From IMG/VR virus record IMGVR_UViG_3300007760_000097, positions 1-22,839 of that record: 22,839 bases of DNA; one strand, written 5' to 3'. This DNA is from a virus. This document shows positions 2,021 to 22,839 of the stretch, in pieces. Position 1 is the first letter of the stretch. Each line of letters begins with the position of its first letter. The translations under genes were made by a program, and so were the position numbers. The notes beneath the pieces are model-generated. The model was not told the origin of the DNA. It saw nothing but the letters and a program-made list of their open reading frames with translations, and ran no database searches.

Positions 2021-2668
2021 ATGAAACTTATAACAGAACATATAGAAGACATCGAATATATCGTAGAAGAATCTGCCGGTGAAAAGAATCATTTCATCAA
2101 AGGGATTTTTATGCAAGCTGAACAGAAAAACCGAAATGGTCGAGTGTATCCTATATCCACTTTAAGAAAAGAAGTAAAGCGATATGGTGATACATATGTT
2201 AAAAATAATCGAGCATTTGGTGAACTTGGGCATCCAGATGGACCAACTATTAATCTTGAACGAGTTTCACACATGATTACAAGCCTCGAAGAAGATGGCT
2301 ATAACAACTTTATTGGCAAAGCAAAGGTTATGAATACGCCTAATGGAAATATTGTAAAGAATTTGATGAAAGAGGGCGCCAAGTTAGGTGTATCTTCACG
2401 CGGCATGGGTTCTTTAAAGTCCTTGGGGGGATCAAATATTGTACAAGATGATTTCTATCTTGCAACTGCCGCAGATATTGTTGCAGACCCTTCTGCTCCA
2501 AATGCATTCGTTGAAGGCATCATGGAAGGAAAGGAATGGGTCTGGGACAATGGACGTTTGAAAGAGCAGGAAATTTCCAATTATAAAAGAACAATTGACA
2601 CCACACCTCAAAAGCAGTTAGAAGAGCGAAAGTTAGAAATTTTTAAGGATTTTCTTTCAAAATTATAA
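2021..2668 (+). CDS. 21: Prohead core protease gp21
   Basis: This is the T4 gp21 serine protease family (MEROPS S80), which sits inside the immature prohead and trims scaffold and capsid proteins after (L/I)xE sites before DNA packaging. At 215 residues it matches the T4 protein (about 212). Visible family blocks are NRNGRVYP (38-44), GELGHPDGPTINLERVSH (67-84) and LGVSSRGMGSL (122-132). His84 or His71 and Ser125/Ser126 are the natural catalytic candidates, inferred from conservation. It lies between the core protein and gp22, as in T4. The ribosome site before ATG 2021 is weak (AGAG), which fits a catalytic component needed in low copy. Confidence 0.93.
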   Translation: MKLITEHIEDIEYIVEESAGEKNHFIKGIFMQAEQKNRNGRVYPISTLRKEVKRYGDTYVKNNRAFGELGHPDGPTINLERVSHMITSLEEDGYNNFIGKAKVMNTPNGNIVKNLMKEGAKLGVSSRGMGSLKSLGGSNIVQDDFYLATAADIVADPSAPNAFVEGIMEGKEWVWDNGRLKEQEISNYKRTIDTTPQKQLEERKLEIFKDFLSKL

Positions 2669-2672
2669 AAAT

Positions 2673-2695
2673 GATAAATAGAGATAGAATAAATA
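2673..2695 (+). promoter_or_regulatory. Candidate late promoter elements before gp22
   Basis: Two NATAAATA matches lie between gp21 and gp22: GATAAATA at 2673-2680 and AATAAATA at 2688-2695. T4 late promoters are TATAAATA, and NATAAATA has been described for marine T4-like cyanophages. The second is 22 bases before the gp22 start, similar to the exact copies elsewhere here. AT-rich spacers produce such matches by chance, so these are weaker calls than the exact sites. Confidence 0.45.
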
Positions 2696-2717
2696 TCTCA
2701 CTTTAGGAGAACTGAAC

Positions 2718-3950
2718 ATGGCAACTCAAACAGAAATCTTACAAGAAGGGGAACTTGTTACTGAGGCGGGTGTGGCTACCCCCGGAAACTCTTCCTTTCC
2801 TAGAGAAGGCTCAACCCCAGGGAAAGCAAATGCTCCCAAGGCAAAGGCTAAGGTTGGACCACTTCCTCCTGTTACGACAGATCCTGAAGTGAGAAATAAG
2901 GATGCTGCTAAGGTTGCACATCAAACTAAAAAGGCCGCTGAGCCACAAGATGCCAAAAAGACTGGCGACCAAACAGCGGATAAGTTAAAAGAAGATGAAG
3001 ATCATGATGGTGCCGAGTTGGTAGAGGGTGAAGATGTTCCTCTCACTAAAGCTGGCATGGCCATGGCCATTTTCGACGCACTACGCGAAATGGATAAAGA
3101 TGATTTGGAAGCTTCTTTTGGTAATATTGTAAATGCTATCTACGAGCAGCCAGAAGAAGAAGAGGATATTGATGTTTCTGAAATCGAAGAAGAGGTTGCT
3201 GAAGATCGACAGCCACGATATATTTCAGCCGAAGATATTGACCTTTCTGATGATTTAGGTGCAATGACACAAGACGAAGACCTGTCGGAAGAGTTTAAGG
3301 GTAAGGCTAAAATCATTTTTGAAAGTGCTGTTGTTGCTAAGGTTAATGAAGAGATTGATCGACTTGAGGAAGATTATCGAGCAGAGTTGGTTGAGGCCAT
3401 TCAAACAATTTCTGAAGATCTTTCAAAGAAGGCCGATGATTATCTGACTTATGTAGTCAAGGAATGGATGGAAGAAAATGAATTGGCTGTTGAACGCGGT
3501 CTCAAGACTGAGGTTACAGAAGATTTCATTCAAGGGCTAAAGGATTTGTTCCAAGAACATTATATCGATCTTCCTGAAGAACAAGTAAATGTTGCAGAGG
3601 CTTTGGCTGATAAGGTAGATACTCTAGAAGCCGCTCTAAACGAAGCCATTGAATCTAACATTGAACTCAATAACGGACTTAGCGATTATAAGAAATTTGA
3701 GGTGTTAGCAGACCTTTCTGATGGTTTGGCTGATACTGAAATTGAAAAACTCCGCAGTCTTGCTGAAGGGGTTGAGTATGAAGACGAAGATCAATATACA
3801 GCGAATTTAATGACCATACGAGATAATTATTTTCCAAAAGCGCCGCGAGAAAGTATCGAAGAGACAGTCGAGGAAGGTGGTCTTCTAAATGAAGATATTT
3901 CCCCAGTTATGGCTGCCTATTCAAATGCACTAAAAAGAACTACCAAATAA
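2718..3950 (+). CDS. 22: Prohead scaffold protein gp22
   Basis: This is the major internal scaffold around which gp23 assembles; it is later degraded by gp21. The 410-residue protein is strongly acidic. An N-terminal Lys/Ala/Pro-rich unstructured part (1-90) is followed by acidic runs (145-190) and a long helical region with the typical gp22 sequence: LSEEFKGKAKIIFESAV (189-205), DYLTYVVKEWMEENELA (241-257), then GLKDLFQEHYI (273-283). T4 gp22 is about 270 residues; marine homologues are longer, mostly from added N-terminal sequence. Acidic (L/I)xE tripeptides, the gp21 target consensus, are frequent. AGGAG at 2705-2709 is a good ribosome site, and it lies directly between gp21 and gp23 as in T4. 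Confidence 0.88.
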   Translation: MATQTEILQEGELVTEAGVATPGNSSFPREGSTPGKANAPKAKAKVGPLPPVTTDPEVRNKDAAKVAHQTKKAAEPQDAKKTGDQTADKLKEDEDHDGAELVEGEDVPLTKAGMAMAIFDALREMDKDDLEASFGNIVNAIYEQPEEEEDIDVSEIEEEVAEDRQPRYISAEDIDLSDDLGAMTQDEDLSEEFKGKAKIIFESAVVAKVNEEIDRLEEDYRAELVEAIQTISEDLSKKADDYLTYVVKEWMEENELAVERGLKTEVTEDFIQGLKDLFQEHYIDLPEEQVNVAEALADKVDTLEAALNEAIESNIELNNGLSDYKKFEVLADLSDGLADTEIEKLRSLAEGVEYEDEDQYTANLMTIRDNYFPKAPRESIEETVEEGGLLNEDISPVMAAYSNALKRTTK

Positions 3951-3981: not shown

Positions 3982-5391
3982 ATGCTTCTTTCTGAAGAAC
4001 TTCAAAAGAAATGGCAGCCAGTTCTCGACCATGAGTCTCAAGAGCCGATTACAGACCCACTAAAGAGATCCGTGACTGCTACCCTCCTCGAAAACCAGGA
4101 GCAGGCTCTTCTATCCGGTCAGGCCGGTGAAGGGCGTGGTCTTCTTTCCGAGTCCCCCATAAACGTAACCGGCGGCTCTACAGATGCTGGTGTTGGTGTT
4201 GATAACTACGATCCCGTTCTTATCAGCCTAGTTCGACGCGCAATGCCTAATCTTATTGCGTATGACATTTGTGGTGTGCAGCCAATGACAGGCCCAACCG
4301 GCCTCATCTTTGCAATGCGTGCCTCTTATGCAAATAGCACACTTCGTGATCCGGGCGACACCAATGCTGGTGGCTTTGGTCCTGGTGCTGATCCAAACTC
4401 AGGTCCATCAAGCGGTAAGCCCCATGAAGCTCTATACTGGGAAGCCAACACGGCCTTCTCTGGTGCTGGAACTCAGACTGGCCAGGCTGCTAATGCTGCT
4501 AGTTCAACTACTGGTACTAGTATGTCCACATCTAGTGCAGAGACCCTAACTGGTGATGCATTTCCTCAGATGGGCTTCGTCATCGACAAGGTGTCTGTTA
4601 CTGCTGGTTCCCGCGCACTCAAGGCTGAATACAGCATTGAGCTTGCACAAGACTTGAAGGCAATTCATGGTCTTGATGCAGAGACTGAGCTTGCGAACAT
4701 TCTTTCGGCTGAAATTCTTGCAGAAATCAACCGTGAAGTTGTTCGTACTGTTGTCCGACAAGCCAGAGAGGGTGGGCAGCAAGGTCTTGCTTCGGCTGGC
4801 ACATTCAACCTTGATGTTGATGCAAATGGTCGTTGGAGTGTTGAGAAGTTCAAGGGTCTCATGTTCCAGATTGAACGTGAAGCAAATATGATTGCTAGGG
4901 ATACTCGTCGCGGCAAGGGGAACATCATTATTTGTTCCTCAGACGTTGCGTCTGCTCTTAGCATGACAGGTTCACTTGACCATGCTCCGGCACTCAAGGA
5001 CAACCTGAACGTTGACGATACTGGCAATACCTTTGCTGGTGTTCTAAACGGCAAGTATAAGGTTTATATCGATCCTTATCATAATGGTGGAGCGTCTGCT
5101 GCGGGATCTGCTGGCGGCTTTGCGTCACACACCGACTATGCTGTTGTTGGTTATCGTGGGTCTTCGGCCTATGATGCTGGTCTGTTCTATTGCCCATATG
5201 TTCCGCTCCAGATGGTGCGTGCAGTTGGCGAGAATGACTTCCAGCCAAAGATTGGATTCAAGACTCGGTATGGCCTTGTCAACAATCCTTTCGCGACCGA
5301 AAATGGATTGGGCGCGATTGATGCGACTAATCCAGGTAGCGCAGATCAGAACATCTACTATCGTAGACTTTTGATCACAAACCTACTCTAA
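3982..5391 (+). CDS. 23: Major capsid protein gp23
   Basis: This is the HK97-fold hexamer subunit of the T4-like head. The family signature is clear: LVRRAMPNLIAYDICGVQPM (83-102) followed by TGPTGLIFAMRA. A variable Gly/Ser/Thr-rich insertion lies around residues 120-185, then a conserved stretch ending in AEILAEINREVVRTV. At 469 residues it is shorter than T4 gp23 (521) and similar to marine homologues. The N-terminal delta domain (1-57) ends in LLSE (54-57), matching the gp21 cleavage consensus, so the mature protein probably begins at Ser58. AAGGAG lies about 10 bases before the ATG. A strong terminator follows the stop. Base composition is more GC-rich than most neighbours, fitting a very highly expressed gene. 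Confidence 0.97.
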   Translation: MLLSEELQKKWQPVLDHESQEPITDPLKRSVTATLLENQEQALLSGQAGEGRGLLSESPINVTGGSTDAGVGVDNYDPVLISLVRRAMPNLIAYDICGVQPMTGPTGLIFAMRASYANSTLRDPGDTNAGGFGPGADPNSGPSSGKPHEALYWEANTAFSGAGTQTGQAANAASSTTGTSMSTSSAETLTGDAFPQMGFVIDKVSVTAGSRALKAEYSIELAQDLKAIHGLDAETELANILSAEILAEINREVVRTVVRQAREGGQQGLASAGTFNLDVDANGRWSVEKFKGLMFQIEREANMIARDTRRGKGNIIICSSDVASALSMTGSLDHAPALKDNLNVDDTGNTFAGVLNGKYKVYIDPYHNGGASAAGSAGGFASHTDYAVVGYRGSSAYDAGLFYCPYVPLQMVRAVGENDFQPKIGFKTRYGLVNNPFATENGLGAIDATNPGSADQNIYYRRLLITNLL

Positions 5392-6065: not shown

Positions 6066-6509
6066 ATGAAGATGGAAGAAATTGAAGAGGCATGGTCTAA
6101 CGATTGTGGTATGGATGATACTGAACTAGATATGGAATCTATTAAGATTCCTCAGTTGCACAATAAGTATCTTAAAATCTATAACCGTGAAAATATTCTG
6201 CTTCGTAAAATGAAATACTCCCATAAACAATTGGAGCGAGATAAGTTTGAATACTATTCGGGTAAAATGGATCAATCTGAGTTGGAAGATCGCGACTGGA
6301 AACAATTTGACCATCGCCTTCTAAAGCAAGATGTTCCTAGGTATATGGAAAGTGATGTTGATTTGATCAACGTTTTAATTAAGCTCGATCAACAACAAAG
6401 TAAAGTTGATTATCTTAAAGCTATTATATCATCAATCAATAACCGAAGCTTTAACATCAATAATGCTATTAAGTGGCGCCAATTTATAAACGGAATAGGT
6501 CAACTGTAA
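6066..6509 (+). CDS. uvsY: UvsY recombination mediator
   Basis: UvsY loads the UvsX recombinase onto gp32-coated single-stranded DNA during recombination-dependent replication and repair. At 147 residues it is close to T4 UvsY (137). It is highly charged and helical, with the family's central DKFEYYSGKMD block (T4: ARLDYYSGRGD), a following acidic stretch and a C-terminal helix ending in a conserved I..R.F.I.....WR-type segment. ATG 6066 is chosen because GGAG (6053-6056) lies nine bases before it; a TTG at 6051 in the same frame would overlap that ribosome site. The neighbour uvsW follows after 49 bases, as in T4-like phages. Confidence 0.9.
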   Translation: MKMEEIEEAWSNDCGMDDTELDMESIKIPQLHNKYLKIYNRENILLRKMKYSHKQLERDKFEYYSGKMDQSELEDRDWKQFDHRLLKQDVPRYMESDVDLINVLIKLDQQQSKVDYLKAIISSINNRSFNINNAIKWRQFINGIGQL

Positions 6510-6558
6510 AACATCTACATTATATGTAGTATAACGCAAGCAGTAGAAAGTTATCCAA

Positions 6559-8067
6559 TTGAGCAGCGAGCTATTATCGTCGCACAATCTTAGAGAGACT
6601 TTAATTATATCACAAGAAAGTTCCGCATATATTACTCTTGATGCTGAACCCCATATAATTAAAGAAATGTCGGAACATTTTACTTTTTATGTTCCTGGCT
6701 ATAAATTTATGCCTGCATATAGAAATCGCACTTGGGACGGAAAAATACGATTACTTGATACTCGAAAGAGAAGAATATATGCAGGGCTATTAAAATATAT
6801 CGAAAAATTTTGTGAAGAGCGAGAATATAATGTTGTTATAGATCACACCACAATAAAGGGTGATGTTGAGTTTTCGTTAAAGGAAGCACAAGATTTTATT
6901 AACACGTTGAAGCTTCCGTTTTCAGTAGCAGAATGGCAACTTAAAGCCTTTGTTCATGCAGTTCGTAAAAAAAGATGCTTGCTTCTTTCTCCCACCGCAT
7001 CTGGAAAATCTTTGATCATTTATCTTCTCATGAGATTTTATGAGAATAAGAAAAAGCTGATCATTGTTCCAACGACATCTCTTGTTGCACAAATGTATCA
7101 TGATTTCGGTCATTATGGTGAACCAGAAGGATGGAAATCAGAAAATCATGTCCATCAAATTATGGCAGGTCGAGAAAAGGAAACTGACAAGAACATTGTG
7201 GTTTCAACTTGGCAATCATTATTTCGTATGCCAAAAGAATATTTTGATCAATATGATGTTGTTATTGGTGATGAGTGTCATTTGTTTAAGTCAAAATCCT
7301 TGACCACAATTATGACCAATATGACCAATGCCGAATATAGAATTGGAACGACAGGAACTTTAGATGATACGCAGACACACCAATTGGTTTTAGAGGGACT
7401 ATTTGGTCTAGTAAAGGCTGTCACTACAACAAAAGACCTGATAGACAAACAATTTTTATCTGCATTTGAGATTAAGGCTATAACACTATCTTATCCAGAA
7501 GAAATCCGAAAAGAACTTAGTAAAGGTAAATATCAAGATGAGGTTGATTTTCTTGTAACAGATACTAAAAGAAACAATTTCATTCGTAATTTAACCCTAA
7601 GCCTGAAGGGAAATACTCTGGTTCTTTTTCAATATGTAGAAAAGCATGGTAAGCCTCTTTTTGAAATAATTAAAGAACAGGCTGATCCTTCTAGAAAACT
7701 ATTCTTCGTCTATGGTGGAACAGATGTGGAACAAAGAGAAAAGGTCCGAGCTATTGTAGAATCTGAAAAAGATGCTATAATAGTAGCATCAAATGGGGTT
7801 TATTCTACCGGAGTGAATATTAAGAATTTACATAATATCATATTCACCCATCCTGGTAAGTCTAAAATACGAACCCTTCAGAGTATTGGTAGAGGATTAA
7901 GAAAAGGTGAAAATAAGATAGCTGCGGTATTATATGACATCGTGGATGATCTTTCATATAAAAAGCGTGCCAATTTCTCTGTTCGCCATTTTTCAGAAAG
8001 ATTCAAATATTACAAGGCAGAAAAATTTTCTGTTAAAATTTATAAAGTAGATTTACTATATAAATAG
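6559..8067 (+). CDS. uvsW: UvsW superfamily 2 DNA/RNA helicase
   Basis: UvsW unwinds and branch-migrates recombination intermediates and R-loops, switching T4 from origin-dependent to recombination-dependent replication. The 502 residues match T4 UvsW (about 503). An N-terminal domain with NRTWDGKIRLLD (56-67) precedes the helicase motifs: SPTASGKS Walker A (144-151), PTTSLVAQM (171-179), DECH (238-241), TGTL (265-268), ASNGVYSTGVN (410-420) and QSIGRGLRKG (441-450). No ATG fits the conserved N-terminus; the first in-frame ATG would remove much of it, so TTG 6559 with a weak AGAAAG site is the likely start. The stop codon overlaps a late promoter for the next gene. Confidence 0.95.
   Translation: MSSELLSSHNLRETLIISQESSAYITLDAEPHIIKEMSEHFTFYVPGYKFMPAYRNRTWDGKIRLLDTRKRRIYAGLLKYIEKFCEEREYNVVIDHTTIKGDVEFSLKEAQDFINTLKLPFSVAEWQLKAFVHAVRKKRCLLLSPTASGKSLIIYLLMRFYENKKKLIIVPTTSLVAQMYHDFGHYGEPEGWKSENHVHQIMAGREKETDKNIVVSTWQSLFRMPKEYFDQYDVVIGDECHLFKSKSLTTIMTNMTNAEYRIGTTGTLDDTQTHQLVLEGLFGLVKAVTTTKDLIDKQFLSAFEIKAITLSYPEEIRKELSKGKYQDEVDFLVTDTKRNNFIRNLTLSLKGNTLVLFQYVEKHGKPLFEIIKEQADPSRKLFFVYGGTDVEQREKVRAIVESEKDAIIVASNGVYSTGVNIKNLHNIIFTHPGKSKIRTLQSIGRGLRKGENKIAAVLYDIVDDLSYKKRANFSVRHFSERFKYYKAEKFSVKIYKVDLLYK
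8059..8066 (+). promoter_or_regulatory. T4-type late promoter (exact TATAAATA) overlapping the uvsW stop
   Basis: An exact TATAAATA sits inside the last codons of uvsW, 18 bases before the next start codon, the same spacing as the tail tube promoter. It would put the Sm-like gene, and possibly gp55, under late control in addition to readthrough from the uvsY promoter. Confidence 0.8.
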
Positions 8068-8618: not shown

Positions 8619-9185
8619 ATGGAAAAAACAAAATCTAATACTAAAGCTAAAGCCAATCATTATGTTGATAATACATTGTTTTTAGATGAAATGTTAAAGT
8701 TTAGAAATTCAGTTATTGAATCTAAGCTCAACAATACCGAAAGGCCTCAGGTTCCTAATTATGTTGGAGAATGCTTTCTGAAGATTGCAGAACATCTTTC
8801 ATATAAACCCAATTTCATCAACTATACCTTCAGAGAAGAAATGATTTCAGATGGAATTGAAAATTGTTTACAGTATATTGATAACTTCGATCCCGAGAAA
8901 TCTAGAAATCCCTTTGCATATTTTACTCAAATAATTTACTTTGCATTTTTGCGAAGGATCCAAAAAGAAAAGAAACAGCTTTATGTGAAGTATAAATCAT
9001 TAGAAAGGTCTGGAATGATGGAAGGTATTATGGCTCAACAGGCGCCCGGCGGAGGAGATGAATTTCGTTTAGGTAAATATAACGACAGCATTTATTCCAA
9101 TCTCTATGATTTTATCGAGGAGTTTGAAGCTAAAGCGACGGCCAATAAGAAAAAGGCGGCCGCAAAAAAGAAGCCAAAGGCATAG
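8619..9185 (+). CDS. 55: Late-transcription sigma factor gp55
   Basis: gp55 is the small T4 sigma-family protein that binds host RNA polymerase core and directs it to TATAAATA late promoters, with gp33 and the sliding clamp. The 188 residues match T4 gp55 (185). The sigma region-2-like core is visible as EMISDGIENCLQYIDNFDP (roughly 87-105), then NPFAYFTQIIYFAFLRRIQKEKKQ, a pattern shared with sigma70 region 2. The last 20 residues are almost entirely Lys and Ala. TTAGGAT provides the ribosome site. Presence of gp55 beside TATAAATA sites throughout the window makes the late-promoter assignments coherent. Confidence 0.93.
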   Translation: MEKTKSNTKAKANHYVDNTLFLDEMLKFRNSVIESKLNNTERPQVPNYVGECFLKIAEHLSYKPNFINYTFREEMISDGIENCLQYIDNFDPEKSRNPFAYFTQIIYFAFLRRIQKEKKQLYVKYKSLERSGMMEGIMAQQAPGGGDEFRLGKYNDSIYSNLYDFIEEFEAKATANKKKAAAKKKPKA

Positions 9186-10306: not shown

Positions 10307-12025
10307 ATGGCATTGGAATTTCAGAAGGTTCGTTGGAAAAATTTCCTTTCTTCGGGAAATAATTTTATTGAGATTGAACTAAACAAATCAACCAGAACAC
10401 TTATTATAGGAAAAAATGGTTCAGGAAAAAGCACACTTCTTGATGCCATTACCTTTGGTTTGTTTGGAAAGCCGTTTCGCAAGATTAGTAAACCCACGCT
10501 GATCAATAGTATTAACGATGGATCGTGTTGCGTTGAAATTGAGTTTTGTATTGGGAATAAACGGTATCATGTGGAGCGAGGAATTAAACCCAATTTATTT
10601 AATATAACAATAAATGGAACTACACTCGACCAGGCGTCTAGTGTAAAAGATGCACAGGAATATTTTGAAGAACAAATTTTACACCTCAATTATAAGTCGT
10701 TTACCCAGGCTGTTATTTTGGGAAGCGCAACATTTCTTCCTTTTATGCAATTAACAGCAGCCCATAGAAGAGAAGTGATTGAAGACTTGTTGGATATTAG
10801 AATATTTTCAGGAATGAATTCTATTCTGAAAGAACGCATTAGTGAGGTTAAGTCTAAAATTTCTGATAATACACACAACATAGAACTAACTGAAGAAAAA
10901 ATAGAAATTCATAATAATCATCTTAAAAAATTACAGACGAACCACCAGGCAAAATTAGAAAAAAATAGAGAAGAGATAAAAGAGTCCCATGAAACTATCG
11001 TGGCACATAAATCTGAAATAACAACTCTTTCCAATCAAGTGCAAAATTTAAATGTCACAATTACAGATCAAGATAAATTACAAAAATCTAAAAAATCTAT
11101 AGAGGGGCTGTTGTTTAAAATACAAACAAATGAGTCTAAGATAAAAAAGGAAATTGATTTTTATACGGACCACGATGACTGCCCAACTTGTGAACAAAAA
11201 ATTGATGCAGGATTTAAATCAAAGACTATTGAAAATAAGTCTCTTAAATTAAATGAATTAGAACAAGCATTGCTTGATCTTGAGGAAAAGGTTAAAGGAG
11301 TAGACAAGAGACTGTCAGAAATTTCTGGTGTGAAAGATCAAATTAACGAATTGCAAAATTCGATCAATGTGGAAAATAATTCGATTTCTGCTTTGACGCA
11401 GTATGTCAAAAAAATACAAGAGGAAAATGAAACCTTACAGGAAACAAAAGGTGATCTTAATAAGGAAAAAGAAACCATAAAAACATTGTTGTCCGAAACA
11501 AAAGAATTGGAAAAATCACAAGAGGCACTATCGAATACAAAATCATTATATCAAACGGCTGGTGATCTATTAAAAGATTCAGGAATAAAAACATTAATCA
11601 TAAAGCAATATATTCCTATCATTAATAAACTAATCAACCAACACTTGGCTGATATGGATTTTTTCGTTCACTTTACTCTAGACGAAAACTTTCAAGAGAC
11701 AATTAAAAGTAGGCATAGGGATCAGTTTTCGTATTATAATTTTAGTGAAGGTGAGAAGAAGAGAATTGATCTTGCCCTTCTGTTTACCTGGAGGTCTGTG
11801 GCACGACTTAAAAATTCAATCAACACTAATCTTTTGATTTTGGATGAAGTTTTTGATAGTTCATTAGACATGGATGGTACTGAAGAGTTTATGAAAATTT
11901 TATATTCATTAGGTGAAGGACAAAACGTGTTTGTAATTTCCCATAAAACAGACATGCTGCATGATAAATTTGACGCATCGATTAAGTTTGAAAAAGTAAG
12001 AGGTTTTAGTCAGGTGGCTGCATGA
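10307..12025 (+). CDS. 46: gp46, Rad50/SbcC-type ATPase
   Basis: This is the ATPase partner of gp47. Visible features in order are Walker A GKNGSGKS (35-42), a long coiled coil broken by a zinc-hook CPTC (292-295), the ABC signature FSEGEKKR (479-486), Walker B LLILDE (509-514) and a switch His in VISHK (543-547). The length of 572 matches T4 gp46 (560). The stop codon overlaps the start of the next gene (ATGA), so the accessory cassette that follows is probably translated from the same mRNA. Confidence 0.96.
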   Translation: MALEFQKVRWKNFLSSGNNFIEIELNKSTRTLIIGKNGSGKSTLLDAITFGLFGKPFRKISKPTLINSINDGSCCVEIEFCIGNKRYHVERGIKPNLFNITINGTTLDQASSVKDAQEYFEEQILHLNYKSFTQAVILGSATFLPFMQLTAAHRREVIEDLLDIRIFSGMNSILKERISEVKSKISDNTHNIELTEEKIEIHNNHLKKLQTNHQAKLEKNREEIKESHETIVAHKSEITTLSNQVQNLNVTITDQDKLQKSKKSIEGLLFKIQTNESKIKKEIDFYTDHDDCPTCEQKIDAGFKSKTIENKSLKLNELEQALLDLEEKVKGVDKRLSEISGVKDQINELQNSINVENNSISALTQYVKKIQEENETLQETKGDLNKEKETIKTLLSETKELEKSQEALSNTKSLYQTAGDLLKDSGIKTLIIKQYIPIINKLINQHLADMDFFVHFTLDENFQETIKSRHRDQFSYYNFSEGEKKRIDLALLFTWRSVARLKNSINTNLLILDEVFDSSLDMDGTEEFMKILYSLGEGQNVFVISHKTDMLHDKFDASIKFEKVRGFSQVAA

Positions 12026-13170
12026 TGGAAGAAAAAAAACCATGGATGAAAGGTTATGAGTTAGAATACCTTAAAGAAATAGAAACATTTTATTCGTATT
12101 ATAATACATATGCCATGTCTCCTTTTAATTCATTCAAAAAGAATAATGTAGCAGAAGGATTGCACGACAAATCATTATACTTTGATGGAGATGTTGCATT
12201 TACTAGTAAAATTTCAAAAGCTGCTTCTCCTATTAATATGTACCGTGGTGTAGTTATTGGGAACAAACAAAAGGGCGACTGTACTATAAAAAACTTAGCA
12301 TGGAAAGAGGGCTGTCAATCAAAAGCCCTTGCAATTTTAAAAGAACATGAGATTGATAAACCATGTTGGCTTTATGTTTGGGGGGAGGATGCGAATTCAA
12401 AAGAAGTTGCTTTGAAGGCAGGATTCTCTTGGGTTGGAACAAAAATTACAACCTTTGCTGAATTATATGGAATTTATTTCAGACCATCATTAACAGATAA
12501 TGCGTTGTTTGATGTTCCAAGAATACATCCAGACAGGTTGCCTGAAGAGGATTTTTCTTTAGAAAAACTTTCGTTAGATGATGTGACTCCTTTGATTGAA
12601 TTTTTATCAGAGCAAATTCAAAATTTGGACTTAGATTTCACGAATCATTATTCAAACTATAATAAAAATGGTGCATGGTCGGCACTATCGCTTCGTGGTT
12701 ATACTCCTGATCCTGAATTTATTACCAAACCTATTGAGATGAATAAAAAGTGGAAAGAAGAACACGCAGACAAAATATTTGAAATGCAGGACACAATACT
12801 TAGAATGAATCTGGCTTCAGTCGAACTTATACTAGATTTGATTCCAAGCACATTTCATCGAATTAGAATTATGCGACTTGCTCCTGGAGGAGGGGAACTT
12901 GAAAGACATACTGATCAAGTTGATCCCGATTCTGGTATTCAAGACGGAAAAATTATGCGATTGCACTTTCCAATTATCACCAATGACTCTGTTGTATTTA
13001 CCACATGGAATGTTGATGGTACTAAAAAAAATGTACATATGAAGGTGGGGGAATGTTGGTATATTGATACTCGCAAGCCTCACCAGGCCATAAATACTGG
13101 AAAAACAGATCGACTTCATTTGGTTGTTGATGTTGATGCAAATGATGATGTGAGAGGATTATTATGTTAG
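12022..13170 (+). CDS. GNAT-like domain fused to an aspartyl-hydroxylase-type 2OG/Fe(II) oxygenase
   Basis: Two domains are visible in 382 residues. Residues 1-155 end in WLYVWGEDANSKEVALKAGF and a final strand (LYGIYFRP), the typical second half of an N-acetyltransferase (GNAT) fold; the usual acyl-CoA loop (R-x-x-G-x-G) is not evident, so this half may be degenerate or bind another cofactor. Residues 270-382 match the aspartyl/asparaginyl beta-hydroxylase-like 2OG oxygenases: iron ligands H296-x-D298 and H354, MRLHFPI (312-318), GECWYID (343-349), and R364 in DRLHLVVD for 2-oxoglutarate. The catalytic set is complete. The gene overlaps both gp46 and the next gene by a few bases, indicating translational coupling. 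The substrate could be protein, nucleic acid or an amino acid and cannot be read from sequence. Confidence 0.75.
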   Translation: MMEEKKPWMKGYELEYLKEIETFYSYYNTYAMSPFNSFKKNNVAEGLHDKSLYFDGDVAFTSKISKAASPINMYRGVVIGNKQKGDCTIKNLAWKEGCQSKALAILKEHEIDKPCWLYVWGEDANSKEVALKAGFSWVGTKITTFAELYGIYFRPSLTDNALFDVPRIHPDRLPEEDFSLEKLSLDDVTPLIEFLSEQIQNLDLDFTNHYSNYNKNGAWSALSLRGYTPDPEFITKPIEMNKKWKEEHADKIFEMQDTILRMNLASVELILDLIPSTFHRIRIMRLAPGGGELERHTDQVDPDSGIQDGKIMRLHFPIITNDSVVFTTWNVDGTKKNVHMKVGECWYIDTRKPHQAINTGKTDRLHLVVDVDANDDVRGLLC

Positions 13171-15779: not shown

Positions 15780-18700
15780 ATGGCTCCTCCACCATTGAAA
15801 TTAACGAACCTATCTGGATTTACATCTCGTCCTGGAATTTTTGCTACGGGACCAAATGAAAATCATATTGTAATCAATATTGACCCAACTAATGATATAT
15901 ATTACCAGGGTTTGTCTGGTTACTATCCAGGAATGGGCGAAAGTTCTTCAGGCCACCTTTTAATGCAAGGGACTGGAGATGAATTAAATCCTAGATATTG
16001 GTGGCTTAGCGATTTCCCTTATCAAAGAAATGTGACACATTCTGACGCACCTGATGAATTTAGATTTAGGCCCGCTGAAATCTGGGCAGGTATAATGAAT
16101 GATACATATGCGGCCGCAAGTGCAGATAATTTAATTCCATATTACAGCATAGTGAATGCGGAATATGGAACGACCCAGAATCAATTTAGGGGTACACACC
16201 CGTTTCCAAGCCATGCCAACATCTTTCAATATCGGCAAAGAAGATCGTGGAACAAATATACCCTTAAACATGCTCACGCCAAATATGGTCGCCCTGGTAT
16301 AGACATTGCTTGGGAGATTGCAAAATTGAAGGGAATTCCATATTGGGAAGTTAAAAATACTGCATATACCTGGGAGGTTAATATTGCCCACGATGCTTGT
16401 GTTGCTAGTACGGGACCATATACGAATACTTTAGAAGCAGATCCCGATGCTGCGTGGACAGGAGCCAATGCTGGAGCATGGCACGGGTCAGAAGACCATC
16501 CAGATTATGTCAATGACGGTATGATGAGACATGCATTACGAAATACATATGGTCCAGAATATCAATTTAAATATGGATCTGGAGCATATAGTGCGGGTGT
16601 GGGTGAGGCCGGAAGATATTATAGAACGCATTCTAATTTTGGAGGCAGCGCCACAAATCATTATCAAAACTCAAATGATTCTGAGCCTCAGGACATAATA
16701 TTTAGACATAGTGATCCGACCTTATTTGAACAAGGAATAATAGAACCTCATTTTCCTCAACTCGGTGGCACCAGCCCAGATTTTTTCTATCTAAATAATA
16801 CACATGAATTTTCTGGATTAATATTACTACAGCAAATTGCTCAAGCCGGTTATTTAGAATATGGTTGGTCGAAATTTTCTGCTCCAGGACCTTTTATGTT
16901 TCCTGAAAATTTGTCATATCATGATCAATATTTAGCCTCACTCGGAACAGGAAATGGATTATCAAATAGTGCTAAACTACGAGGAAGAAAGTGGGATCTG
17001 ACTGTTGATTCATTCACCCGCTCCTTAGGTTTTAGTGGGGTTGAAGATGATGATCGCACAAGCACTACATGCAGCACTAGAAATTCCGACGGAACACCGA
17101 TACCAGAGTTATTACCAAATTCTGCTATATGTGCAGAATTTTTACACCCAAATAGCGTCGGATTAGTACGAATTAATGGTATGATGATGGGGCATGGGGG
17201 CGCAGGGGGTCGAGGTGGATCTACTAATGTAGATGAAAATGCCTTGAGTATAAACAGAAATTCATACAAATGGTTATTACGAGGTGGTACAGGAATCGTT
17301 TCCGATCCAGCCAATATAACACAGAATGAAAAATTATTAAAACCTACTGGAAGCACAAAGGTGGCTGAACACCCCTTCAGCGAAATGCAACGTGATTCAT
17401 CTGATTCAACTTTACAATCAACCCGATTGGCACCTAAAACTACAGGGGCAAAACAGGCCGACTTTCCGGGCGGCGGCGGCGGAATGGGATGGCACTCAGG
17501 AATGGGGGGCATAACTTCAGCATCACTTTATTCTCAAAATCCAACTAAGGCTTTTGGACATGGATTGTTAGAACTTCGCACCACAGGCGCACAAGATGTG
17601 TCTATAGGCGCAGGTAGCGGGTTTGCTTACTGGACGGGAAATACTTATCAAAGAACTGCAAATGGATATGGTTTGTATGGTGATAGTAACGTCGGGTTAT
17701 CTCTCTTTGTATATGGAAATTCTCTTCTTGAAGAAGAAATTTCTCCAGGCGAAACTCATGCTACTAATATTTGGGTAGCTCCGGCCGGGGATTCAGTAAA
17801 GGCTGCAACTTGGATTGATTTTATGTTTGGAGAGTCTTCAGCTTATGGAAATAACACAAACACATCGGCCCATAGTACAGGAACTCCACCCTCAAATCCA
17901 TTTGGAATTTTTGGAAGACATTCATATGCATATTCTTGGGCAAATTCGTCACCTTTAGATGGAGAGTGGGGGCTCCACGCCGATGGTGTAACTGTCAACA
18001 CCCCAGGGGGAACTATAGTATCAACAGGGACAGATGGTAGAGGTCTTCAATATTCAAGTGAAGACCGACTAGTTATGGCCAATAAAATTACTTCTATTGC
18101 TACTTCTAATAACAATATCCTCAATGCCCCAATTTTTGGTAAATTTACAACGAATGCAGAAACTTCCACTTCTGATGCCTTGGAAAATGTATCAGGATTT
18201 TTAAATGTTCTTGATGGTTATAGTGATCCGGGATTTGCTCACCTTTTAGGGCGAAGAGCCTCAGCACCAGGAACAAATGTTCAATTCAAAGGCCATGTTA
18301 AAGAAAATGCACGACAGTCATGGAGGCTTGCAGATAGAGCTTTTGGTTGGTATGATGCAGCAGATAAAATAAACTTAGGCAATGGTACTATATGGGGAGT
18401 CTCTCAGGCCAGTTCTTCTTCTGATATACGACAAGAATGGGCACTACAACATGGGGCCCCGCTTGATAGAAATGCAAATACCACTCCTGCCCGAGGCGTT
18501 GGATCTAATTCTCCTGCTCCTCGGGTTGGATCGTTGGATTCTTGTTGGAGGCTCGGCCCAGCAGTTAGACACGCTTATGGAGGAACGAGCCGTCCAGATT
18601 ATATTTCATTTTATGATTCTCCTCCTCCAGGAATGCCATTTGGTAATGGTAGAAAATTATATCATCAATTAGCAATCTACCAATATTGGTATGGTACTGG

Positions 18701-20375
18701 ATATGGTCATGGAGCAGAATTTCAAACAAGCTCTCCTCCCACATATGTTCAGAGTGGAGCCGTGAGTAGAAATGGTTGGGGTTTGTATAACACATTGGCT
18801 GATGCCAGAGATGTTGCTCGACCAACATGGCCATCATTGACTTTAACTGCATCGACTTCAAGAGATTTAATTTTTGATGCTTTTGGGTGGTCTCATCAGA
18901 ACTTACAGATATGGTCTGGATTGAATATGGCAGGCGGTCACACTAATGCTGGTTTACATACTGCGGCGTTGGTTGAAGGAACTAAAGAAATACCTTGGTT
19001 TCCTGAGGGAGAGTGGGCAACTGATTTAGTGACTCCTAATTTTGGCACAAACACAAACGGGCCCCGGGCATGGTATCCACATCAATTTAATAATGTCTGG
19101 CCAGATGATTTTGATGCTGATGGTGGAGATGTTATGAATAATAGATCTCACCAAAGAGATGTTACAGCATCTCTAGTTTATGGAAGGTGTTCTCCAATAG
19201 AACGTTCAGTTGAAATTTCTGGCGTCCATCAGACTTCTGGCGGTGCGCCATCATTTAATGTTATTGATCAGCAGGGAAATGTTTTAGCATATTATACTTC
19301 TGATGCATCTGTCTGGTCGTCTGCTAATAATGCAGCAGATCTTTCATCCAGTAGTCTTGTCGGAGAAGGGGTACTGACCGGCCTTCTTGGGATGCCGAGC
19401 CCCAACAAGCATTTGCGTTGGGGATTATGTGCGCCTGCATTTGAAGGAATGTTTTGGGGTTCATGGAGGGCTGCCTCGTCGCCAACGACTATTCGGGGAA
19501 CCACGCCTTGGCATCTAACTGGACTTTCTGGTGCTGATGGCGGCTCGGCTCTTAGCACTAATCATAAGGTGTATATTTTAAGAGATGCTGATAATCCAGA
19601 TGCTCTTATTGGAAACACTTGGTCTTTTATTTCTTCTGGTGGCGGTGGTGGTGCGGGTGCTGGATATAATCATCCCCATGTTAATGTGAACCTACTAGAC
19701 AATACCACAACTGGAGAAGATGCTGCGCGTAATAGTTTAGCCAACACAGGAATTGGAATTGATCCTGCATATAAAAATACCACAATAATCTTAGGGGCCG
19801 AAACAGTTGCACCCGGGCTTACTGGTGTCTTAGATAATGGTGTGACTGCTGGTGGTGCTGATGTTGGGTGGGACGTTGCAGATAATCAGGCTGGTTATGG
19901 AGGATCTATTGGTCAATCTGGGCAAGGCTCACACAACCCCAGTCATAATTATGATTATAACACAAATCAATGGAACACAAATATTTCAACTGGTGCTAAT
20001 ACTTATGGAAAATATGTAGAATCTACAACATTTCAAGATCATAGTGGATCCACTACTGTGGATGAGTCTAATGGCATTCCTGCTTCATCAGAACTTGTTG
20101 AATTTAATAACCAAGGACATAAGTCTTATGTGCCCAGCACAGGATTCACACACCATGAAGATTATCCTTCCATAGGAGGAGAATCGGTTGCGATAAAAAC
20201 TATAGCCCCATCCGGACAAGTAATTTTTGATCAACCACAAAGTGTATCGGGCACTCAAATTACCGAATCAGAATATCGAGGGATTATCTTAGGGTCCCCA
20301 GATCCTAGAGGGGCTGTTACTCAAACTGATGTTGTTCAAGATTTAACTAGTTCAGAGTGGTGGAGAGACATTTAA
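15780..20375 (+). CDS. Giant glycine- and aromatic-rich virion protein, probable tail fibre or adhesin
   Basis: The protein has 1531 residues, with no signal peptide, no membrane segment and few charged helices. It is rich in Gly, Asn, Ser, Thr, Tyr, Trp and His, as in beta-rich phage fibres. Glycine clusters lie at 471-481 (GHGGAGGRGG), 563-577 (PGGGGGMGWHSGMGG) and 1287-1295 (GGGGGAGAG), recalling the glycine-rich motifs of gp38-type adhesins. Many stretches read as place-like His/Trp/Tyr loops, unlike enzymes. An exact late promoter lies 27 bases upstream and two hairpins follow. No homologous domain is recognised, so the structural role rests on size, composition and late promoter. A minor capsid decoration or baseplate protein is possible. 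Confidence 0.6.
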   Translation: MAPPPLKLTNLSGFTSRPGIFATGPNENHIVINIDPTNDIYYQGLSGYYPGMGESSSGHLLMQGTGDELNPRYWWLSDFPYQRNVTHSDAPDEFRFRPAEIWAGIMNDTYAAASADNLIPYYSIVNAEYGTTQNQFRGTHPFPSHANIFQYRQRRSWNKYTLKHAHAKYGRPGIDIAWEIAKLKGIPYWEVKNTAYTWEVNIAHDACVASTGPYTNTLEADPDAAWTGANAGAWHGSEDHPDYVNDGMMRHALRNTYGPEYQFKYGSGAYSAGVGEAGRYYRTHSNFGGSATNHYQNSNDSEPQDIIFRHSDPTLFEQGIIEPHFPQLGGTSPDFFYLNNTHEFSGLILLQQIAQAGYLEYGWSKFSAPGPFMFPENLSYHDQYLASLGTGNGLSNSAKLRGRKWDLTVDSFTRSLGFSGVEDDDRTSTTCSTRNSDGTPIPELLPNSAICAEFLHPNSVGLVRINGMMMGHGGAGGRGGSTNVDENALSINRNSYKWLLRGGTGIVSDPANITQNEKLLKPTGSTKVAEHPFSEMQRDSSDSTLQSTRLAPKTTGAKQADFPGGGGGMGWHSGMGGITSASLYSQNPTKAFGHGLLELRTTGAQDVSIGAGSGFAYWTGNTYQRTANGYGLYGDSNVGLSLFVYGNSLLEEEISPGETHATNIWVAPAGDSVKAATWIDFMFGESSAYGNNTNTSAHSTGTPPSNPFGIFGRHSYAYSWANSSPLDGEWGLHADGVTVNTPGGTIVSTGTDGRGLQYSSEDRLVMANKITSIATSNNNILNAPIFGKFTTNAETSTSDALENVSGFLNVLDGYSDPGFAHLLGRRASAPGTNVQFKGHVKENARQSWRLADRAFGWYDAADKINLGNGTIWGVSQASSSSDIRQEWALQHGAPLDRNANTTPARGVGSNSPAPRVGSLDSCWRLGPAVRHAYGGTSRPDYISFYDSPPPGMPFGNGRKLYHQLAIYQYWYGTGYGHGAEFQTSSPPTYVQSGAVSRNGWGLYNTLADARDVARPTWPSLTLTASTSRDLIFDAFGWSHQNLQIWSGLNMAGGHTNAGLHTAALVEGTKEIPWFPEGEWATDLVTPNFGTNTNGPRAWYPHQFNNVWPDDFDADGGDVMNNRSHQRDVTASLVYGRCSPIERSVEISGVHQTSGGAPSFNVIDQQGNVLAYYTSDASVWSSANNAADLSSSSLVGEGVLTGLLGMPSPNKHLRWGLCAPAFEGMFWGSWRAASSPTTIRGTTPWHLTGLSGADGGSALSTNHKVYILRDADNPDALIGNTWSFISSGGGGGAGAGYNHPHVNVNLLDNTTTGEDAARNSLANTGIGIDPAYKNTTIILGAETVAPGLTGVLDNGVTAGGADVGWDVADNQAGYGGSIGQSGQGSHNPSHNYDYNTNQWNTNISTGANTYGKYVESTTFQDHSGSTTVDESNGIPASSELVEFNNQGHKSYVPSTGFTHHEDYPSIGGESVAIKTIAPSGQVIFDQPQSVSGTQITESEYRGIILGSPDPRGAVTQTDVVQDLTSSEWWRDI

Positions 20376-20412: not shown

Positions 20413-20431
20413 AATACAACAAATATCAAGG

Positions 20432-20470
20432 ACGCACAGGCTATGCTTTTGTAGCTTTGTGCGTTTTTTT
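20432..20470 (+). terminator. Intrinsic terminator between the giant virion gene and the porin gene
   Basis: ACGCACA (20432-20438) pairs with TGTGCGT (20458-20464), and an inner GCTA/TAGC adds four pairs, followed by six further T residues. This isolates the fibre transcript from the porin gene 30 bases later. No TATAAATA or sigma70 promoter is visible between it and the porin ATG, so porin expression probably depends on readthrough or an unrecognised promoter. Confidence 0.9.
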
Positions 20471-20499: not shown

Positions 20500-21531
20500 A
20501 TGATTAGTCGAAAACTTACTAGAAACATTTTATTTACGCTATTTTTAGCTACCACATTTGCAATTTTTGTTAATGAGGGGGCCGCCGAAGAGGCTGCCAG
20601 CGGAGATACCGCTGTCACGTTGGGTGCAGATTCACGGGCCGCCGGGGTCTTTGATAATAAGGGAAACAGTTTTGATCTTGAGAACGTTCGTTTAAATGCA
20701 ACAGTATCAAAGAGTGGTTTTGATGCGATTGCGTCTGTTCAGTACGATGGTTCAGATTTGAATGTTCTTGATGCATCACTCGGCACGGCATTGTATAAGG
20801 ATCTTGCAGACGTTAAGGTTGGACGGTTTCTAATTCCTGCCGACCGAAATGCATCGAAAGACCTCTATGGTCTGACTACTTGGGATGGAACTGGTGTAGT
20901 TTCCAAGTGGGCATCACCACAGGATTCTGGTCGTGGTGATGGAGTTGCACTTTCTGGTTCCACAGATGCGCCCGAAGGTTTTAGCATTGCATACAACGTA
21001 GGACTGTTCGACGGCAATCGGGGTGATGCTCTGGTTGCTGCGCGAGCGGATCTTACATTCGCAAAATTGGAAGGTCTGGCTTTGGGAGTAAACATTCAAT
21101 CCCAGAACGATGCCTTCCGTGGCAACAAGGACTTTTTCGGGGTTGGGGTTGATGCACTCTATACCACTACAGTTGATCCTGGAACAGTTTCTCTTACTGC
21201 TTCGTTTGCAGACTATGACCTTGATGGTGCCCGTTATCATGAAGGTTCTGGACGCAATGCCGGAACTGGTTTCTCGGCAGGTGCTTCAATTGCATTGAAC
21301 AATACTCATAAGGTTGCATCATTGAATGTTGGATTTGAACCCTTCTTCCTTTATCAGAATTTTGATTATGATGAATATCGTTCGGGTGATACCGAGCGGT
21401 TTGATGTGGGCGCAAACTTCAACTTGGCTGATTTCGCAGGCTCAAAGGTCACCGTTCAGTATTTTAACGAAGACCCTGCGCGTGGAGCCAGCAACGATGG
21501 TGCCATTCTGGGATTGCAAGTAGTATTTTAA
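20500..21531 (+). CDS. Outer-membrane porin, O/P type, with signal peptide
   Basis: This is a host-type outer-membrane beta-barrel carried by the phage. It has a basic start (RKLTRN), a hydrophobic stretch (10-24) and a probable signal peptidase site after GAA (27-29). The rest alternates strands and turns, with VGRFLIPADR at about residues 107-116 followed by a stretch like the conserved block of OprO/OprP-type (phosphate-selective) porins. It ends GLQVVF, the terminal aromatic signature read by the BAM assembly machine. The mature length of about 314 fits a small porin. AAGGAG lies 10 bases before ATG 20500. Base use is more GC-rich than its neighbours and resembles the capsid gene, consistent with high expression or recent host origin. 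Substrate specificity is not shown. Confidence 0.82.
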   Translation: MISRKLTRNILFTLFLATTFAIFVNEGAAEEAASGDTAVTLGADSRAAGVFDNKGNSFDLENVRLNATVSKSGFDAIASVQYDGSDLNVLDASLGTALYKDLADVKVGRFLIPADRNASKDLYGLTTWDGTGVVSKWASPQDSGRGDGVALSGSTDAPEGFSIAYNVGLFDGNRGDALVAARADLTFAKLEGLALGVNIQSQNDAFRGNKDFFGVGVDALYTTTVDPGTVSLTASFADYDLDGARYHEGSGRNAGTGFSAGASIALNNTHKVASLNVGFEPFFLYQNFDYDEYRSGDTERFDVGANFNLADFAGSKVTVQYFNEDPARGASNDGAILGLQVVF

Positions 21532-21549
21532 TAAATCAGAATCGTGTGT

Positions 21550-21557
21550 TATAAATA
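21550..21557 (+). promoter_or_regulatory. T4-type late promoter (exact TATAAATA) before the endonuclease gene
   Basis: An exact TATAAATA lies 18 bases after the porin stop. Unlike the other exact copies, it is far from its gene (80 bases), leaving room for a 5' leader that contains a long hairpin. Confidence 0.82.
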
Positions 21558-21583
21558 CTCAATATGAACACCACGATACTGAA

Positions 21584-21626
21584 CCCCCTCACAACCCACC
21601 ATTAATGGTGGGTTGTTGAGGTTGGG
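21584..21626 (+). promoter_or_regulatory. Long leader hairpin reaching the endonuclease ribosome binding site
   Basis: A near-perfect inverted repeat is centred at 21603/21604. Positions 21591-21600 pair without mismatch with 21607-21616, and after one bulged base the stem continues through 21587-21590, then 21584-21586 with 21624-21626. The 3' arm runs into the G-run 21624-21629, so the Shine-Dalgarno (GGGGGGAG, 21624-21631) is partly occupied. The ATTTTTA after it could alternatively make this a terminator for porin transcripts. Either way, it is the likely control point between porin and endonuclease. Confidence 0.78.
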
Positions 21627-21637
21627 GGGAGATTTTT

Positions 21638-22396
21638 ATGAAATCTATTGTAATGATATTGATATTTTTTTCTTCATCTATCACATTTGCACAAGAACAT
21701 ACTTGGAGTTTTTCTTCTGCAAAAAGTAAACTTCAAAAAAAAGTGTATAATGATATTCAAAATCCAACAACGCTTTATTGTGGATGTTCGTTTATCGTTT
21801 CAGATAAAACAGTAAATTCAACAGACTGTGGATATGTTCCTAGAAATGATAACGTTCGAGCTAAACGTATTGAGTGGGAACATATTATGCCAGCCAGCCA
21901 TTTCGGACAATGGAGGCAATGTTGGTCTCATGGTAAAGAAGCGTTTCCGAATCAATGTCACAATAAAACAAATAGACAATGTTGCGCTAAAGTTGATCCT
22001 GAATTTAAGCAAATGGAATCGGATATGCATAATTTATGGCCTGCTATAGGAGAGTTAAATGCGGATCGATCTAATTTTGATTATGATATAATTCCAGGGG
22101 AAGTTAAAAATTATGGTGCATGTGATTTTGAGGTTGTTCGACACGGTAGCCGATTTGATGGACTTGGATTAAATGTAGCAGAACCTCCGCCCGCTGCAAG
22201 GGGTATTATAGCCAGAGCCTACAAGTATATGATACAAACATATCATCTCACAACATCATGCCGAACCAATACTTTAATGGACGTATGGGACCACGATTTT
22301 CCCCCCACCCCAGAAGAATGTTTACGCAATACAAAAATATTAGATATTCAGGGAAATGACAACCCATTTATAACTATCGGTTGCATAAAAGGATAA
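21638..22396 (+). CDS. endA: Secreted endonuclease I (EndA/NucM family)
   Basis: This family cuts double-stranded DNA in the periplasm or outside the cell. The 252-residue protein has a signal peptide (1-18, cleavage after Phe-Ala before Gln19), then the catalytic block EWEHIMPASHFG (79-90, H82 as general base) and DMHNLWPAIGELNADRSN (129-146) for metal and substrate binding, with the family's YGACDFE segment and a C-terminal QGNDNPFI. About 11 cysteines fit disulfides formed in the periplasm, so the enzyme should be inactive in the cytoplasm. E. coli EndA is 235 residues. It follows an exact late promoter and a hairpin. It could degrade extracellular or incoming phage DNA, or recycle nucleotides; a direct lysis role is not supported. 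Confidence 0.92.
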   Translation: MKSIVMILIFFSSSITFAQEHTWSFSSAKSKLQKKVYNDIQNPTTLYCGCSFIVSDKTVNSTDCGYVPRNDNVRAKRIEWEHIMPASHFGQWRQCWSHGKEAFPNQCHNKTNRQCCAKVDPEFKQMESDMHNLWPAIGELNADRSNFDYDIIPGEVKNYGACDFEVVRHGSRFDGLGLNVAEPPPAARGIIARAYKYMIQTYHLTTSCRTNTLMDVWDHDFPPTPEECLRNTKILDIQGNDNPFITIGCIKG

Positions 22397-22462: not shown

Positions 22463-22839
22463 ATGCCAAACGGAAACAATCCGAAGGACGAGGATAAGTA
22501 TAAATGGCCCTGGTCAATTACAGACCGGGAGTTTGGGGCACTTGAGCAAGAACTCAAGGAGCTACGGCACGATTTTAGAAATCTTAAAACTATTGTAATT
22601 AATAGTGGAGTAAGTTCAGTTACTCAAGACGATGTGAATGAATATAGACAAAATGCGGCAACTTTGAGGCAACATATAGATATGTTAAAACAATCGGATA
22701 AACTATACAGATACCTCAATGACGAAGTAATGAAACTGAAGATAAAGGTATATACAGGAGCATCAATCGGAGCCGTAATTGCAGGAATCATAGTGTGGTT
22801 GGTCGATGTTGCCTTTCAGGCAATAGACCAATTAAATTA
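22463..22839 (+). CDS. Coiled-coil protein with one membrane helix (partial, runs off the end)
   Basis: The frame starts at ATG 22463, with GAGG about eight bases upstream, and is open to the window end: 125 residues, no stop. Residues 1-20 are polar, 21-95 form charged heptad-like helices (LEQELKELRHDF, LRQHIDMLKQSD, DEVMKLKIKV), and about 96-117 are a single membrane segment (YTGASIGAVIAGIIVWLVDV). No signal peptide is seen. This order (coiled coil then one C-terminal helix) is like XhlA-type haemolysin/holin partners and other small phage envelope proteins. Its place after a porin and a periplasmic nuclease suggests an inner-membrane role, but lysis, exclusion or anchoring cannot be told apart. 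Confidence 0.7.
   Translation, partial: MPNGNNPKDEDKYKWPWSITDREFGALEQELKELRHDFRNLKTIVINSGVSSVTQDDVNEYRQNAATLRQHIDMLKQSDKLYRYLNDEVMKLKIKVYTGASIGAVIAGIIVWLVDVAFQAIDQLN

Follow-up and report, generated by a model that had tools for sequence, protein, structure and literature searches.

The DNA stretch analysed here (the window; 22,839 nucleotides) is a 22.8-kb virus record, a metagenomic fragment of a T4-like phage, and it encodes a protein that can safely be described as a 16-stranded porin distantly related to the Porin_O_P family. We estimate a probability of about 0.5 that this divergent relative, as its modelled structure suggests, forms a pore of the general-diffusion type and thereby alters how permeable the host outer membrane is. 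This reading is preferred because a profile of bacterial porins recognises the protein, the model has 16 strands with a long loop at the L3 position and aligns with OprP at Z 25.5, and the gene appears to be under purifying selection. It is further favoured by the T4-like context at two different sites, by the separate acquisitions of Porin_O_P relatives in other phages, and by an acidic lumen in which no ladder of basic residues is visible.

Genome context and family relationship

The T4-like assignment made in the sequence-only reading is borne out by PHROG matches to gp21 protease, gp22 scaffold, gp23, tail tube, UvsW-type helicase, gp46/47 and gp55, and gp23 is up to 58% identical to its counterparts in P-SSM2, P-SSM5 and Mosig. 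The coding features to which we refer are the following.

3982-5391, + strand: gp23 major capsid protein of a T4-like marine phage (phrog_138, E 2.4e-151)
8619-9185, + strand: gp55 late sigma factor (phrog_234, E 1.1e-62)
20500-21531, + strand: porin gene, 343 aa, predicted exported 16-stranded beta-barrel (from the ORF, the HMM of bacterial homologues, AF2 and VIA-align)
20833-20931, + strand: codons for residues 112-144, the long loop that links strands 5 and 6 at the place of constriction loop L3 (low pLDDT)
21638-22396, + strand: exported EndA-type endonuclease I, neighbour of the porin (PF04231, E 2.6e-29; phrog_6861, E 3.4e-42)

The porin ORF starts with ATG, is preceded directly by an RBS-like AAGGAG, and ends with TAA; no promoter was identified on its 5' side. 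The N-terminus is hydrophobic, with a putative signal cleavage, placed by eye, after GAA at residues 27-29. The C-terminal residue is Phe, which closes a final strand, AILGLQVVF, of alternating hydrophobic residues. The earlier description of a complete phage porin with signal peptide and C-terminal Phe is thus confirmed by an intact ORF for which an exported barrel is predicted. The GC content of the gene (~47%) is high, but gp23 is just as GC-rich, and we therefore do not take it as a mark of transfer.

Upstream of the porin lies a gene of 1531 codons (15780-20375), whose product is glycine-rich towards its end and is possibly a receptor-binding or tail protein; it has no relative in Pfam, in PHROG (E under 0.2) or among GenBank phages. 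We also note a 382-aa protein encoded directly after gp46 (12022-13170), which carries an aspartyl/asparaginyl beta-hydroxylase domain (PF05118, E 3e-10).

Searched alone, the porin finds no Pfam match (PF07396 is absent even at E 1), no PHROG family and no protein of the GenBank phages, and a PDB sequence search with it returns nothing meaningful. The relationship emerges through a Porin_O_P-related profile, an HMM of 16 marine gammaproteobacterial homologues built solely on bacterial proteins, which finds the window protein at E 7.5e-9 (Z = 100,000) and reports none of 500 shuffled copies of it. The porin of another phage contig, L014, is also detected by BLASTP (E 2e-6) and hhalign (E 7e-6). 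PF07396 itself matches 11 of the 21 aligned homologues. The proposed O/P type therefore stands as a remote Porin_O_P homology, with PF07396 itself giving no match to the window protein.

Comparison with Porin_O_P (PF07396; OprP and OprO of Pseudomonas; the marine gammaproteobacterial members L018-L042) reveals a common layout of signal peptide, 16 strands and terminal strand, together with the motifs GR-x-L-x-P-x-D/E-R, GR-x-D/E-GV and LDA. The first of these contains the “VGRF..P” block, in which G, R, L, P and R are invariant among the 21 homologues. The block had been taken as a hint of the phosphate-selective family; it marks the whole family and is uninformative on phosphate. The window porin differs in the absence of a ~17-residue block, NPGYYTSSTYFG..GD (strands 8/9), and of a CFC-FDG segment (strands 11/12), both of which are present in most other aligned members. 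It further differs in its identity of just ~25%, in its lack of a match to PF07396, and in having no visible arginine ladder.

Predicted barrel and pore lining

The AF2 model, built with the 21 homologues, contains 16 strands with moderate confidence (pLDDT 73, pTM 0.70). Strands 5 and 6 are joined by a long loop, which lies where porins have their constriction loop L3 and is poorly modelled. The prediction thus shows these features of a 16-stranded porin: the barrel, a long L3, the signal peptide (by eye) and the C-terminal aromatic residue. When the model was compared with known structures by VIA-align, OprP and OprO headed the list at Z 25.5, with OprP aligned over 298 residues. The 50 listed porins and outer-membrane channels span Z 22.7-25.5, and the OmpF-, OmpT- and PorB-like general porins are within one to two Z units of OprP and OprO. 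Among the sequences of the PDB, OprP was not recovered by the family profile.

The place of OprP and OprO at the top of the structural list, the remote homology to PF07396 proteins, and a PhoH encoded by the second porin-carrying T4-like phage (see below) could be taken to indicate an OprP/OprO-type phosphate- or anion-specific porin that raises phosphate uptake in infection. We consider this very unlikely. The mature porin is acidic, with a pI of 4.3, as are its bacterial homologues to the same degree. When alternate strand residues are taken as inward-facing on the pLDDT 73 model, in which L3 is unreliable, ~6 Arg/Lys stand against ~11 Asp/Glu. The OprP/OprO scores are tied with those of the general porins, and PhoH-like genes are no evidence of phosphate transport. 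The phosphate selectivity suggested in the sequence-only reading is accordingly unsupported, and the Arg/Lys ladder that structure prediction was expected to show along the pore is not visible. Given the rough assignment, the modelled counts weigh against an Arg ladder without excluding one.

The mature porin in a second T4-like phage

Four IMG/VR contigs (L002-L005), which come from four sample identifiers and are ~99% identical to one another, represent one other T4-like phage that carries a related porin. Its protein is 82% identical to that of the window (88% over the available part of L005, a contig that begins inside the porin). The site is different. In the window the porin is situated between the 1531-aa gene and the EndA-type nuclease, whereas in the other phage it occupies the gap between the sliding-clamp gene gp45 and the clamp-loader gene gp44. 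All four contigs show gp44 downstream of it, and the three that extend beyond its 5' end show gp45 upstream. These two genes lie side by side in HTVC008M and Melnitz, but S-SM2 has denV and speD between them, so that this gap is an accessory-gene site of T4-like phages. No pre-insertion site was found for the locus of the window porin.

The elements that delimit and flank the gene in the window are the following.

20428-20468, + strand: terminator-like hairpin overlapping the T run between the 1531-aa gene and the porin (fold -19.8 kcal/mol, z -3.6)
20500-20592, + strand: signal-peptide coding segment, unrelated in DNA and protein to those of the L002-L004 porins (L005 is cut off here)
20593-21535, + strand: conserved mature-porin block, 89.8% identical in DNA to the porin of the other phage (blastn)
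21550-21557, + strand: T4-type late promoter motif TATAAATA, directly 3' of the porin and at the same place in L002
21579-21631, + strand: strong hairpin 3' of the porin, kept in the other phage lineage (fold -30.6 kcal/mol, z -3.85)

The conserved block is 943 nt long; it begins at the boundary between signal peptide and mature protein and ends shortly after the stop codon. Within the 933 nt of mature codons, dN is 0.063 and dS is 0.264 (NG86), a dN/dS of ~0.24. These values, together with the 82% protein identity and a reading frame kept in all four other contigs, argue against a chance ORF and indicate, from the sequence comparison, that the gene is under purifying selection and has a selected function. 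Such constraint bears on the possibility that the gene has a late role in weakening the envelope or in lysis, or is largely passive, hitch-hiking cargo. Its neighbours in the window, the exported nuclease and a small ORF (22463-22837) whose C-terminal segment is hydrophobic, would suit that role, as would the late promoter motif on its 3' side; but the neighbours differ in the other phage and the dN/dS speaks for a selected function, so that we regard a lytic or passive part as unlikely.

Outside the conserved block, the signal peptides and flanks of the two phages are unrelated, with the exception of the 3' element. As dS in the mature part is just 0.26, ordinary drift would not have erased the whole similarity of the first 31 codons, and the simplest reading is that the signal-peptide segment has been exchanged. 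With the block bounded at the start of the mature protein and at the stop codon, and with unrelated signals in front of it, the mature porin appears to behave as a cassette that is re-fitted with differing export signals.

The 3' element consists of TATAAATA and the hairpin (21550-21631 in the window, 7085-7180 in L002), and its neighbouring genes differ between the two phages. The L002 counterpart of the hairpin folds at -37.5 kcal/mol (z -6.1). The hairpin segments of the two phages align (blastn E 0.002), and the stem contains a compensatory change, CGACCCA/TGGGTCG versus CAACCCA/TGGGTTG. Among the Rfam families, none reaches threshold for the window copy. In both phages the porin is flanked on both sides by strong hairpins, which in L002 are the two strongest in 13 kb, and the arrangement looks like an insulated cassette. 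A wider proposal, which we put forward tentatively and hold to be far from established, is that marine T4-like phages share a mobile cassette of mature barrel and 3' late-promoter/hairpin element, whose signal peptide is swapped on transfer. A pore evolved in phages, for which our searches returned no close bacterial counterpart, would in this manner be re-targeted to different hosts, whose outer membrane would be remodelled in lytic infection.

The second phage also bears on the question of whether a bacterial porin was joined to phage DNA by host contamination or as an assembly chimera. Speaking for it are the metagenomic origin of the window, itself a fragment, and the absence of the porin from isolates among the GenBank phages. 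Nevertheless, four more contigs carry it inside the gp45-gp44 replication block, the late-promoter/hairpin element is common to both phages, and a close bacterial copy did not turn up in a motif scan of 84,980 species genomes. An artefact of this kind is, in our judgement, extremely improbable.

Origin, known phage porins and proposed function

The motif scan of IMG/VR led to two further phage groups with similar porins, the L010 group and L014, which match PF07396 (E 2.5e-13 and 3.7e-12). At best, the L010 porin is ~59% and the L014 porin ~70% identical to marine gammaproteobacterial porins, and the L010 porin has no match among GenBank phages. Like the window porin, these proteins are phage-carried, rare in IMG/VR and members of the same superfamily; they differ in forming separate branches. 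The tree places the L014 porin, a separate phage acquisition, beside a marine gammaproteobacterial protein as its sister (99/87), and the L010 and L012 porins form another branch. The window clade cannot be placed, since it forms a solitary branch of great length (3.5 changes per column). At least three acquisitions of O/P-like porins by marine phages are likely from these sequences. In all, motif-based scans of IMG/VR (2.9 million records) yielded nine porin contigs besides the window; such phage porins look rare in these scans, which miss diverged copies.

In L014 the porin gene (2341-3435, - strand) adjoins phage ribonucleotide reductase genes. The L010 phage encodes a permuted two-piece tmRNA (6463-6931, - strand) with the tag ANDNWYYEEYRLAA, and a protein with an Fe-S cluster biosynthesis domain (6945-7274).

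No close bacterial donor of the window clade was found in searches by motif or by sample. The exact-motif scan of the 84,980 species genomes gave no relative. A degenerate-motif scan led to 26 bacterial loci, nearly all in Gammaproteobacteria, with nothing closer than porins of ~25% identity. Sampled genomes (274 gammaproteobacterial, 398 from Pseudomonadota, 145 from Verrucomicrobiota and two narrower draws) gave weak partial matches or none.

The PA-2 porin (lc/nmpC type) is an OmpC/OmpF-type porin of temperate lambdoid coliphages. It resembles the window porin in being phage-carried and destined for the host outer membrane, as is predicted for the window porin; unlike the latter, it does not belong to Porin_O_P and does not reside in a lytic T4-like genome. 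BFVD also contains phage proteins named as porins. An OmpL-like porin was described in virus contigs from an oxygen-minimum zone, beside glnK-amtB, and was traced to Flavobacteriales (PMC8115048). It too is a predicted beta-barrel porin on a marine virus contig, and is host-derived; the comparison made here is one of context, which differs in that the OmpL-like gene is linked to glnK-amtB and has been traced to Flavobacteriales. As phage porins were already known, the window porin is a new, divergent variant.

We propose that the porin would be made by the phage during infection and, as the signal peptide, barrel and C-terminal Phe suggest, exported by the Sec/BAM route. Once inserted in the outer membrane of the host, it would form a 16-stranded pore of the general-diffusion type. 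The pore may alter the permeability of the infected cell and benefit the phage through uptake of small solutes, or through replacement of host porins that are no longer synthesised.

The main rival to this general-pore reading, which we consider possible though clearly the less probable, is superinfection exclusion, in which the phage porin replaces, masks or down-regulates a host receptor and blocks the adsorption of competing phages. The PA-2 porin would offer a precedent by analogy, and ipeX, a phage-porin transcript, controls OmpC production (PMC12197685). The adjoining EndA-type nuclease could, moreover, cut incoming DNA in the periplasm. Against this reading, no EndA is present beside the porin in the L002-L005 contigs. 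The mature proteins of the two phages are also near-identical in long stretches, and their surface loops bear no sign of diversification. Relatives of the nuclease in annotated phage records are largely from Helicobacter (pro)phages, with 22 IMG/VR loci besides; an empty porin site beside them was not seen in the annotated phage collection. An altered cell surface could matter more than permeability.

Earlier records of phage porins come from a small number of temperate coliphages and from scattered contigs of viromes. To these the present analysis adds one mature porin in two T4-like phages, at different sites and with unrelated signal peptides, and the apparent acquisition of O/P-like porins by marine phages at least three separate times. 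If the pore works as proposed, lytic marine phages would remodel the cell that they infect, either in its permeability barrier or in its receptor surface.
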